The notes beneath the pieces are model-generated. The model had not been told where the DNA came from. It did no database searches and saw nothing but the letters and a program-made list of their open reading frames with translations. From an uncultured Caryophanales bacterium (GTDB lineage: Bacteria > Bacillota_I > Bacilli_A > RFN20 > CAG-826), in assembly GCA_947164155.1 (NCBI GenBank), contig CAMUVS010000001.1, positions 1 through 44,498 of the forward strand: a stretch of DNA of 44,498 nt. The letters run 5' to 3'. Position numbers and translations under genes: made by a program. Below, one piece after another: positions 1-4,349 of this stretch. Each line of letters opens with the position of its first letter. Position 1 is the stretch's first letter.

Positions 1-415
1 TCTTTAATCGTTGGAATTCCTTAATAATGTAAAGTTTCACTTCAGGAGAAATCCAGGATGCAAATTCAAGAGCGATGTCGCGATGCGCAAAAGTGCCTCC
101 TCCATATTTCCCGGATTTAGTTTTGAAACCAATTGCATTAGTACTTTTAGTCCATTTGGTTGGAGTCATTACAAAGTAATTATGCCCCGATTCATTTTTA
201 AACTGGTCGAATTCGACCATATTAAAATTTAGGTTGTTAATTCGCTCCCATATTCCTAAAAATTCTATGGTTGCTCTTAATCTCATCCAGTTCTTAATTA
301 CATCTGCAGGAAAATCTGGATTTTTAATCCTCGCAATATCAGTTAAACTAATAAAATCATCATCACCTATCCCGGTAATATCAATATCAATGTTTTTTAT
401 GGTAATTTTTTTCAT
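1..415 (-). CDS. KilA-N domain protein, truncated by left window edge
   Basis: Hand translation of the minus strand from ATG (415-413) gives MKKITIKNIDIDITGIGDDDFISLTDIARIKNPDFPADVIKNWMRLRATIEFLGIWERIN...GKYGGGTFAHRDIALEFASWISPEVKLYIIKEFQRLK, open to the edge. AGGAGG Shine-Dalgarno upstream. The HRDIALEFASWISPEVKLYIIKEFQRL block is typical of KilA-N. Confidence 0.88.
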   Translation of the reverse strand, partial: MKKITIKNIDIDITGIGDDDFISLTDIARIKNPDFPADVIKNWMRLRATIEFLGIWERINNLNFNMVEFDQFKNESGHNYFVMTPTKWTKSTNAIGFKTKSGKYGGGTFAHRDIALEFASWISPEVKLYIIKEFQRLK

Positions 416-593: not shown

Positions 594-1496
594 TTATATT
601 AATCCCGCTAAAGTGTTTAATATCATTCCCGAAGAAACAAGAATGATGATTAATAATAACTGCAGTTTATTTTTAGTTTTAAAGAATAACACTGTTGCCA
701 AAGACACAATAACAAAGTCTAATCCTACAATAACATTAACAATCGCCGGAATAGAGTTAGCGTAAGAGAATGCTGTATATTTTGCTACTACCGTTAAAGC
801 GTTAAATACCGCTCCAATGAAAATAAATAAAAGGACCTTCCATTTAATAGTGACCACTTCTTTAATTGATTTAGTAAATAAAGAGGTTATAAACATTACT
901 ACAAATAGAATTGAAGTTTGATGAAAAGAAACTACGTCAGAAGGTAAATCACTTAACTTTGTTTTCACAATTAATAAAACAAAGGCAAAAGCAATAACAG
1001 AGACTAACGCAAACATCACCCAAAGTAATTTCGCCTTAGGATTAATTTTTTTATTAAAAACTGTATAAATTAAAGCGGCTAATAATAAGGCTAGACCAAC
1101 GAAATATAAAGATACATTTAAAGGTTTAGCCCCATTAGTAACTAATGCGTAAGTAAAAAAAATAAATAAAGCATTCGCGAATAATAATGTTCCCGCACTA
1201 CAAAATGGAGCGAAAGCTTCTAAGTGAGATCTTTTAATTGCAAGAAAATAAAATAGCCAGTTTACCGCCATTAAAACGCCAACTAGAGAGAGCCAAAGCC
1301 ACTGTTCTTTAGACAAACTATATAAAGTAGGAACATGCCCAAGAACTAAACAAATAAAGAAGCAAGCGATAACCATAAAAAACGATTTAAGAACCGCATT
1401 AGTAATCGCTGAAGCCTTGTTAGCGCCAAGCCTATTAAAAATGGTATTGCCACTAGAGGCAAGTAAAGCTAGAAAAGCAAATAAAATATATTCCAC
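594..1496 (-). CDS. EamA/DMT-type transporter (10 TM-like)
   Basis: 300-aa ORF, hydrophobic throughout with two-half EamA-like organisation. Apparent GTG start. Confidence 0.75.
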   Translation of the reverse strand: MEYILFAFLALLASSGNTIFNRLGANKASAITNAVLKSFFMVIACFFICLVLGHVPTLYSLSKEQWLWLSLVGVLMAVNWLFYFLAIKRSHLEAFAPFCSAGTLLFANALFIFFTYALVTNGAKPLNVSLYFVGLALLLAALIYTVFNKKINPKAKLLWVMFALVSVIAFAFVLLIVKTKLSDLPSDVVSFHQTSILFVVMFITSLFTKSIKEVVTIKWKVLLFIFIGAVFNALTVVAKYTAFSYANSIPAIVNVIVGLDFVIVSLATVLFFKTKNKLQLLLIIILVSSGMILNTLAGLI

Positions 1497-1596
1497 GATT
1501 ATTAGAATACTCTTTTCTAAAGAAAAATAATAATTATATTCTACGAATTCACCGGTCTCTTTATCATATAGTTAGTCACAAAAATGTCACAAGAAA

Positions 1597-1677: not shown

Positions 1678-1947
1678 TTATAAAGACCACTCATGGCCGC
1701 AGCTATTACATTTATAAGTACTGCATCCACTTATTTGATAATCTGGCTTTTTTCTAAAATCTTTCGAACCACAATTTGGGCATTTCATGCTTGAAAAACA
1801 TCCTCCACCACTAACAGCTTCAATTTGTTCACTAGTTAATTCAACGCCTTCTTCTTTTGCGAGTTTTAATAATTCATCTTGGCTTTTACACGCTTTAGCT
1901 TTAGCGATTTGTTCTTCACTTAATCCTTTTAATAATTCTTGTTTCAT
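1678..1947 (-). CDS. Nif11-like leader peptide with double-Gly motif and CxxC...CxxC zinc-ribbon-like core
   Basis: MKQELLKGLSEEQIAKAKACKSQDELLKLAKEEGVELTSEQIEAVSGGG leader, then CFSSMKCPNCGSKDF...KCNSCGHEWSL. Confidence 0.8.
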   Translation of the reverse strand: MKQELLKGLSEEQIAKAKACKSQDELLKLAKEEGVELTSEQIEAVSGGGCFSSMKCPNCGSKDFRKKPDYQISGCSTYKCNSCGHEWSL

Positions 1948-1976
1948 ATTTAAAGTTCTCCTTTATTAATTATATA

Positions 1977-2276
1977 TTAGTGTGGTTGGTAACTATCATC
2001 TACATACCACACATAGCCACACTTTTTGCAAGTACGTTTTTCACCATCTTTTTTAGGATTGTTAGTCCCACATTTTGGGCAATCAGTTGGATTGATTTTA
2101 TCGCCAACATCTGAAACTACACTACAAACACCACCGCCACTAATGGTAGAGAGCTGTTCTTCGGTTAATTCGATCCCTTCTTCTTTTGCTAACGCTAAGA
2201 GTTCTTCATGACTTTTACATGCTTTGACTTTAGCGATTTGCTCATCGGTTAAACCTTTTAATAATTCTTTTTTCAT
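1977..2276 (-). CDS. Nif11-like leader peptide with double-Gly motif and zinc-ribbon-like core (paralog)
   Basis: MKKELLKGLTDEQIAKVKACKSHEELLALAKEEGIELTEEQLSTISGGG leader, then ...DCPKCGTNNPKKDGEKRTCKKCGYVWYVDDSYQPH. Near-identical leader to 1678-1947. Confidence 0.82.
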   Translation of the reverse strand: MKKELLKGLTDEQIAKVKACKSHEELLALAKEEGIELTEEQLSTISGGGVCSVVSDVGDKINPTDCPKCGTNNPKKDGEKRTCKKCGYVWYVDDSYQPH

Positions 2277-2378
2277 GTTCGAGGTTCTCCTTTGTTATTA
2301 ACATATTAGCACAGCGTTTGTCACAAATGTGCCACAAAGAAATATCCACCGAACAATCACTAAGAGGTTTTTTATACT

Positions 2379-4349
2379 TTATTTTTCTAGATATCGATCA
2401 AACTCGTATTCGAATAGATACATCTGCTGGTTATTTGGACTATATCTACAAAATAAGACAAGTGGAACAAGGATGAACATCCAATAATTATTTCCTAAGC
2501 CAAGATATATAGCCCGTTGATTATACATAAACGCTAGGCTAACACTTGCTACTAAAATAATTAAGCCCGCACATATAAGATTTTGAATTAAATAATATCG
2601 ATGTCCGTGGAAGAAAAATTGTGAATTATGAACACCATATTTTCTTTCATAAAATAGTCTAATGAAAAATATGATATACATATAGAAAACACTAACGACG
2701 GAAAGAAGTAAGAATGAATTTGGAATCCAGAATTTAAGAAGGATATTTTGTTCTACTCCATATACCATCACATAACGGTTTGAGAAATAATAAATAACAA
2801 TTAGTCCCGCAAGTGGAATTAAAGAAAGCGAATGCCAAATAACTCGCCAATATTTTTTCTTCTTGGTAAGGAAAGTAGGCACAAATAGTAAGAATAGCAA
2901 AATTACATAATTAATCGCCACTACTTGGAAAACGTTACCAGGAATATATTTAAACATGATACCTGTTAAATCGTATCCCCACGCTGTAGTAATCGCTAAG
3001 AAGACTGTCTCTATTGTGGCAATAAATAAGAACATGCCAAGATTTGAAATAATCTTATGAAGTAGATCAATTGGCTTTCTAATACGGTTAACAGAGATAA
3101 TGAAATTTAAAAATACGGCACTAATCCATCCAGTTTTAAAAACTTCAAGTAAGGTAGGATTAGATAAAGCAGTAGGTGGAGTTAAGCCAATTCGTTCAGC
3201 CGCGGTAAAGGCTGCTGCAAGGATGAATAAAATTAAAGAAATTATACAAACAAGCCTTCCTAAAATAACGATAAATGTATCTGGAATACCAACCCTGATA
3301 TTCAAGTCTTCAGGTAATTGTTTATTTTCTTCGCTATCAGGTTTGACACTAATAAGACGAGGTTTAATATTAAGAATTAATAATCTTAAGAACATCGCAA
3401 AGAAAACAAAGAAGAATGTAATACCGCTAAACAAAAAGACTAATCCAATAATTTGAAAATTGAAGTTTTTAATACGGCCCTGTTCTCTAGCGGGTAGAAA
3501 TTCGCTGTGGAAATCAACTGGCTTATCTAAAAGATCACTCATTAGTTCAGAAAATGAATGATTTATTTCTGCTATACCAGTATTGATTATTTTTAAAACA
3601 AGTTCCTCATCAATAATCGGATCTTCTCCAGTAATAAATTTAAAATTGCTATATTCTGTAACATTATTTCCGTTATAGATAAATTCACATCGAAAGTGAG
3701 TGCCAAAAATCAAATCACCATATGTAAAAGAGCAAAGATAAGAACTAACTCCTAAATTAGAACCAAGTTGATATAAATATCTATCAAAAGTTAGTGATTG
3801 CTCATCAATAATGGTTTTAGAATATGTAAGGTCATTAAAATATAAAATATTATCGCTTTGATAGAAGATAAGGTTCGCACTATTGTCACTATCAGTAGTG
3901 CGATCTACATAATAATAACTCATACCAGTCAATAAATCGTGACCAGTTTTCCCTTTTTCAATTACTGCATTTCTAACTTCCTTATAAGTTTGTCCATAAT
4001 ATTCATTAGAGTTATTAACAGATTTAACAAATAAAACGGCACCTACTGCGATAAAAATAGCAAAGAAAGCGGATAAAGAGCCAAATATTATTTTTTTCTT
4101 TTTTAAATTCTTCTTTTTGCCAATAACTGCATCATTACTAGCCGCGGGATACCCATCAAGTCCTTTTAAAGAAAGTTCCACTCCATAAAAAGCATTAATC
4201 TTTTTTAGATTCTTTTTACTTGGACGAAAATAACCTTTTTCATAACAATAAAGCGATAAAGGGGAGATTTTCATCTGCTTACTTGCTTCTTTGATAGTAA
4301 GTCCTTTATCTTCTCTTAAAGAAATTAAATGGAGATTATAATTTTTCAT
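2379..4349 (-). CDS. Membrane-anchored XRE-family (HTH) protein with multi-TM C-terminal half
   Basis: N-terminal LREDKGLTIKEASKQMKISPLSLYCYEKGYFRPSKKNLKKI HTH, one TM, an extracytoplasmic-like segment, then many hydrophobic segments. Confidence 0.7.
   Translation of the reverse strand: MKNYNLHLISLREDKGLTIKEASKQMKISPLSLYCYEKGYFRPSKKNLKKINAFYGVELSLKGLDGYPAASNDAVIGKKKNLKKKKIIFGSLSAFFAIFIAVGAVLFVKSVNNSNEYYGQTYKEVRNAVIEKGKTGHDLLTGMSYYYVDRTTDSDNSANLIFYQSDNILYFNDLTYSKTIIDEQSLTFDRYLYQLGSNLGVSSYLCSFTYGDLIFGTHFRCEFIYNGNNVTEYSNFKFITGEDPIIDEELVLKIINTGIAEINHSFSELMSDLLDKPVDFHSEFLPAREQGRIKNFNFQIIGLVFLFSGITFFFVFFAMFLRLLILNIKPRLISVKPDSEENKQLPEDLNIRVGIPDTFIVILGRLVCIISLILFILAAAFTAAERIGLTPPTALSNPTLLEVFKTGWISAVFLNFIISVNRIRKPIDLLHKIISNLGMFLFIATIETVFLAITTAWGYDLTGIMFKYIPGNVFQVVAINYVILLFLLFVPTFLTKKKKYWRVIWHSLSLIPLAGLIVIYYFSNRYVMVYGVEQNILLKFWIPNSFLLLSVVSVFYMYIIFFIRLFYERKYGVHNSQFFFHGHRYYLIQNLICAGLIILVASVSLAFMYNQRAIYLGLGNNYWMFILVPLVLFCRYSPNNQQMYLFEYEFDRYLEK

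Follow-up and report, generated by a model that had tools for sequence, protein, structure and literature searches.

A tandem pair of Nif11-like precursor genes with zinc-ribbon cores and their proposed maturation by a radical SAM and C39 exporter operon

Two adjacent small genes in the window (the whole 44,498-nucleotide stretch of DNA that was analysed) are likely to be precursor genes for small zinc-ribbon peptides that are matured and exported by the machine encoded on another contig of the same genome, C12; modification of the peptides is probable. The proposal combines the leader family, the form of the cores, the co-occurrence of leaders with a radical SAM enzyme and an exporter, a common operator, and the gene order in a relative.

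Results

The precursor genes and their neighbours

An earlier note on this DNA had described two small open reading frames, and both were confirmed in position and on the minus strand (Table 1). They are real genes. Both had good ribosome-binding sites (AAAGGAGAAC), with 29 bp between precursors A and B, and the ten leader copies in the genome, the 224 distinct relatives and the purifying selection on the cores that are described below exclude chance as the source of the pair. The 656-aa HTH_3 protein that adjoins the precursors is possibly a membrane-bound regulator; it was kept beside the precursors in locus L118.

Table 1. Features of the window around the precursor pair
Feature	Position	Strand	Description
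KilA-N protein gene	2..415	minus	Cut by the contig start; C-terminal half at the end of C12
EamA/DMT-family transporter gene	594..1496	minus	Operator upstream; also adjoins leader genes in L118
Second operator copy	1573..1591	minus	TGTGACATTTTTGTGACTA; upstream of the EamA gene
Precursor A gene	1678..1947	minus	89 aa; leader aa 1-48 (1804-1947), core GCFSSMKCPNCGSKDFRKKPDYQISGCSTYKCNSCGHEWSL (1681-1803)
Precursor B gene	1977..2276	minus	99 aa; leader aa 1-48 (2133-2276), core GVCSVVSDVGDKINPTDCPKCGTNNPKKDGEKRTCKKCGYVWYVDDSYQPH (1980-2132)
Operator	2318..2336	minus	TGTGGCACATTTGTGACAA; heptamer direct repeats, 11-bp period; upstream of precursor B (B-A pair)
HTH_3 membrane protein gene	2379-4349	minus	656 aa; N-terminal HTH_3 domain and about eight transmembrane segments

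The leaders

The earlier note had assigned both leaders to the Nif11-like type and had named TIGR03798 as the model with which to check this. Against that model the 99-aa and 89-aa proteins scored 23.9 and 17.9 bits, respectively, both under the curated cut-off of 32.3; with the related PF07862, precursor B (99 aa, 25.4 bits) was above the cut-off of 23.8 and precursor A (89 aa, 20.3 bits) was under it. The double-glycine cleavage motif that had been noted after the leader, G47 G48, was invariant in 68 sequences. The invariant site and the PF07862 score of precursor B support the assignment, and the window leaders are best regarded as Nif11-like but atypical.

Further copies of the leader were found genome-wide, giving ten Nif11-type leaders in total: the window and C4 have two each, and C12 has six, one of them in a short peptide. 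The mean identity was 0.74 among the leaders and 0.34 among the cores. A collection of 224 distinct leader open reading frames included 201 with zinc-ribbon cores and 17 with short cores, a zinc-ribbon share that is inflated because the patterns used for the collection included stretches of the core.

The cores

The cores follow the pattern CPxCG...CxxCG, and their four ribbon cysteines (C66, C69, C83 and C86), which form two CxxC knuckles with a ribbon-like profile, were invariant over 68 relatives. The core profile built from these relatives matched solved zinc ribbons, namely 1qyp RPB9 (E 1.9e-4), ShdD and CPxCG proteins; by structure identifier, the matches were 1qyp, 3qt1 and 7oqy. The zinc-ribbon-like character first proposed for the cores was thus supported. 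The AlphaFold model of the precursor was weak (pLDDT 63), and a PDB fold search carried out with it gave no match below E 0.001.

When grouped at 60% identity the cores formed 68 families with conserved non-Cys faces; the family of precursor B had 51 members and that of precursor A had 12. Core pN/pS values across species were 0.10-0.26 (0.26 for the precursor A family), which is indicative of purifying selection and argues against fast-diversifying toxins. The cores were near neutral (+0.7) and had no hydrophobic segments.

An extra cysteine was present 0-4 residues after the GG site in 200 of the 201 zinc-ribbon cores, compared to an expectation of 54.8 if the extra cysteine were placed randomly outside the ribbon, and the same was true of 14 of the 17 short cores. 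This residue is a candidate modification site. In two Coriobacteriaceae genomes that had no orthologue of the radical SAM gene, a tryptophan followed soon after the GG site in all six leader peptides read, and in one of the two a different, TIGR04463-like radical SAM/SPASM protein adjoined the NHLM exporter (L091, L092 and L157). The exchange of cysteine for tryptophan where the radical SAM enzyme is different or absent suggests, on these few cases, that the residue after the GG site is the target of the enzyme.

The C12 operon

No maturation enzymes had been visible to the earlier note; this held inside the window and failed genome-wide, since C12 carries an operon for a radical SAM/SPASM protein of 465 residues and a C39-peptidase ABC exporter, together with a short peptide, an HlyD-like protein and a second ABC protein. 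The search of the genome for C39-peptidase transporters and RiPP maturases returned such a transporter and a putative maturase, and the lack of any C39 protease, which had been named as an argument against the precursor reading, was not observed. The only other C39 domain of the genome was in a frame of about 400 residues; most relatives, leader-positive and leader-negative alike, have a frame of this kind.

The radical SAM protein carries the CxxxCxxC motif and the SPASM cysteine set, in agreement with Pfam. None of the NCBIfam maturase models fitted it (best score 115 bits, cut-off 500), and the top structural matches of its structure model were the RiPP maturases SkfB, PqqE and SuiB. The C39-ABC exporter, second ABC protein and HlyD-like protein were encoded together (L008 3468-8223), as in an NHLM set, and scored 825 bits with TIGR03796 (curated cut-off 853), 671 bits with TIGR03797 (cut-off 709) and 22.7 bits (cut-off 156), respectively. 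By these scores the exporter set is related to NHLM but falls under the equivalog line.

The five tandem precursors on C12 were separated by gaps of 10-121 bp; there was no dedicated immunity gene between them, and none fits in gaps of this size. Genes for a SpoIIE phosphatase/HATPase, a STAS protein and a STAS-kinase (L008 124-3450), which read as a partner-switching module, followed the exporter in most Bacilli relatives. The 395-aa protein encoded next to the radical SAM gene is not supported by Pfam as a HipA protein. PADLOC reported no defence system, only generic matches to the radical SAM protein (viperin model) and to ABC proteins.

Position of the window relative to C12

The start of the window and the end of C12 each carry part of one KilA-N gene. 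In the KilA-N protein of the relative G010, aa 1-138 corresponded to the start of C1, the contig of the window (95%), and aa 145-274 to the end of C12 (92%), and the G010 DNA aligned up to the last base of C12 and, after a gap of about 17 bp, again from base 3 of the window. A single G010 contig joined the neighbourhood of the window (the membrane HTH protein, leaders, EamA and KilA-N) to that of C12. The same gene order is likely in the genome of the window; on that assumption, about 2.2 kb probably separate the pair from its five siblings on C12, and the radical SAM gene would be about 8.4 kb away.

With the end of C12 probably abutting the start of the window, the enzymes are missing from the window as an effect of the window and contig edge. 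Of the earlier suggestion of orphan precursors processed in trans, processing by enzymes encoded outside the window was retained. Orphan status was not, because the contig that carries five siblings, a maturase and an exporter is joined to the window in G010 and because the operator is shared. The readings of processing in trans and of secreted metal-binding peptides merge into one.

Distribution in other genomes

Leaders were found in 17 of 59 related genomes. An orthologue of the radical SAM gene was present in 12 of the 17 leader-positive genomes and a large C39-ABC gene in 13, compared to none of the 42 leader-negative genomes in either case (Fisher 6e-9 and 6e-10, respectively, values that are overstated, the genomes being related). 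Neither gene was found in G010, which has 17 leaders; this absence is probably due to contig edges, its C20 contig starting just before the place of the operon. The absence of the radical SAM gene from G017 was taken as the effect of a contig end and not as a biological difference. Counting against the main reading, besides G010, are G072, which has a leader and no radical SAM match, one G002 exporter operon with no radical SAM gene between its parts, and a G002 precursor that adjoins a radical SAM gene and has no cysteine after the GG site. In a second set of 20 genomes several were identical to members of the set of 59 (identical coordinates), so that about twelve were independent new cases.

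The GenBank labels of the leader relatives were mostly those of rumen Bacilli (Erysipelotrichaceae or Bacillales), with some Lachnospiraceae. The Lachnospiraceae had the same radical SAM-HlyD-C39-ABC cassette with such leaders, accompanied by an ECF sigma factor, and their radical SAM proteins showed 66-68% identity. Locus L087, labelled as a Methanomethylophilaceae archaeon, carried the bacterial operon (radical SAM protein 72% identical) and is probably a mis-binned contig.

A shared operator

The operator upstream of precursor B is predicted to drive the B-A pair, and by its own copy the EamA gene is likely to belong to the same regulon. The consensus was TGTGRCA-N4-TGTGACA with a third partial repeat. 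With up to two mismatches, it was found at 126 of 219 leader genes, compared to 29 of 744 other open reading frames of the same loci, at a median of 60 bp before the ATG of the leader genes; many of the remaining leader genes are downstream genes of arrays. The genome had 11 sites, on C1, C4, C12, C14, C27 and C45, as against none for the reversed pattern, and the operator was common to the precursors of the window and of C12.

The site at C14:20607 (L135 3608-6842) preceded a lipoprotein gene, a phosphopantetheinyl transferase gene and an NRPS gene with condensation and AMP-binding domains; those at C45:101 (L137) and C27:5111 (L136) preceded genes for a Big_3/S41-peptidase lipoprotein and for a secreted 493-aa protein with no Pfam match, respectively. 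The genome in which this NRPS operon sits is 1.3 Mb.

A histidine kinase/response regulator pair, here on C47, was encoded in most operator-rich genomes. It was also present in the leader-negative genomes G011, G024 and G050 (L140, L138 and L142), which keep one to four operators. The presence of the pair and of operators in genomes in which no leader gene was found indicates that the regulon extends beyond these peptides. The output domain of the regulator aligned with OmpR-type winged helices. Heptamer repeats separated by 4-nt spacers are the binding sites of SARP regulators (PMC5930380), and the operator here has the same geometry. By this analogy the C47 regulator probably binds the heptamer operator, and this OmpR/SARP-like protein, with its histidine kinase, is likely to control the regulon. 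LytTR/ComE-type control was rejected, since PF04397 is absent from the genome.

Discussion

We propose that the Nif11-type leader routes each precursor to the NHLM-type machine encoded on C12. There the radical SAM/SPASM enzyme would modify the peptide at or near the cysteine after the GG site before export; the chances that modification occurs near this residue are about even, and a thioether would be its most likely chemistry. The C39 domain of the ABC exporter would then cut after the GG site and export a core of 41-51 residues, which would fold around one zinc through its CPxCG and CxxCG knuckles. Acting through the heptamer-repeat operator, the C47 response regulator and its multi-transmembrane histidine kinase probably switch on the dispersed precursor operons, the secreted proteins and the NRPS together. 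The short peptide with the same leader and a Cys-containing core of 13-17 residues may be the signal for the kinase, or the principal substrate of the radical SAM enzyme. As to function, the conserved cores, the co-regulated NRPS and the lack of immunity genes between the precursors would fit a conserved signal between cells or a mild cocktail for competition, and these are preferred here to fast-evolving toxins.

Circumstantial support for RiPP status comes from the co-encoded radical SAM/SPASM enzyme and the near-invariant spare cysteine. It is conceivable, if rather doubtful, that the zinc-ribbon peptides are exported unmodified and that the short Nif11 peptide is the sole substrate of the enzyme; the short peptide would then be the true RiPP and possibly a pheromone. 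In several genomes the short peptide, with its core C[SD]...[KR][KR]Ix[DS], is encoded immediately before the radical SAM gene, a kinase/regulator pair that adjoins the operon in relatives probably regulates it, and G002 has an exporter operon with the short peptide but without a radical SAM gene. However, zinc cores and short cores have the cysteine after the GG site in common, and a zinc ribbon adjoins the radical SAM and exporter genes in the divergent G002 C8 operon and in G012. Zinc-stabilised antimicrobial miniproteins, a bacteriocin cocktail under quorum control, would account for the multi-copy arrays, GG leaders, C39 exporter, co-regulation with the NRPS and secreted proteins, and an architecture like that of com/blp-type regulation. 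We regard this as unlikely: the cores are near neutral, have no hydrophobic segments and are conserved rather than diversifying, and the C12 precursors are packed too closely for dedicated immunity genes between them.

The four-Cys knuckles of every core would also suit secreted zinc scavengers or metal sensors (zincophore-like), yet none of the genes seen under the operators read was for zinc uptake, and the 68 core families with their conserved non-Cys faces suggest binding partners over bulk metal binding; such a role is very improbable. Hardly any weight is given to an intracellular, non-RiPP use in which the leader serves for docking, the ribbon has a regulatory function and the protein is never exported. 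Zinc ribbons are usually intracellular, and the best matches of the cores were transcription-related ribbons, but the GG site is invariant and the C39-ABC gene is restricted to leader-positive genomes.

It is possible, at somewhat less than an even chance, that the peptides of these rumen Bacilli form a new RiPP class: dispersed zinc-ribbon miniproteins with a radical SAM crosslink at a spare N-terminal cysteine, served in trans by one exporter/maturase set whose cassette also occurs in Lachnospiraceae, and controlled as a two-component SARP-like regulon. RiPP cores are usually thought of as short, unstructured peptides that are rebuilt by enzymes. If the proposal is correct, the payload here is instead a ready-made, metal-stabilised fold with an invariant spare cysteine by the cut site, and the range of leader-guided export and radical SAM maturation is wider. 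A set of one enzyme and many substrates (about 68 core families) would pose the question of how a radical SAM enzyme picks one cysteine beside four zinc-bound ones, and the system would suggest that rumen bacteria exchange peptides in a way that has escaped study.

Among open-licence papers, none was found that joined Nif11 leaders with a zinc ribbon or zinc finger, and those on Nif11 and the rumen held, by title and abstract, nothing on zinc-ribbon precursors. Nif11/NHLM export is known; the zinc-ribbon core class and the maturase family appear to be undescribed.

Several known systems resemble parts of this one. Small CPxCG-related zinc ribbon proteins (8q5b) and the TFIIS/RPB9 ribbons have the same knuckle pattern and core length, whereas here the ribbon is fused to an export leader. 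Class II (GG-leader) bacteriocins differ in the dedicated immunity gene, which was not found between the tandem precursors here. The streptococcal com/blp regulons combine a short GG-leader peptide, a kinase/regulator pair, a C39 exporter and scattered GG precursors that share a promoter repeat, all of which have counterparts in the present system; in contrast, this genome has no LytTR protein, and the output domain is OmpR/SARP-like with SARP-like 11-bp repeats. Radical SAM RiPP maturases (SkfB, SuiB, PqqE and CteB), with those of sactipeptides and ranthipeptides among them, share the fold, the SPASM cluster motif and an invariant substrate cysteine, but the proposed substrate core here is a zinc ribbon with one spare cysteine. 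Nif11-derived peptides (N11P, TIGR03798/PF07862) and the NHLM export set TIGR03794/03796/03797 have been described (Haft 2010, PMC2887384), and the system shares with them the leader family, the GG site, large paralogous families dispersed in the genome, and a C39-ABC exporter with a second ABC and an HlyD-like protein. It differs from them in that the leader and exporter score under the curated NCBIfam cut-offs, the maturase belongs to a radical SAM/SPASM family outside the NCBIfam maturase models, and the cores are zinc ribbons, in contrast to the short heterocyclisable or lanthipeptide cores of N11P.
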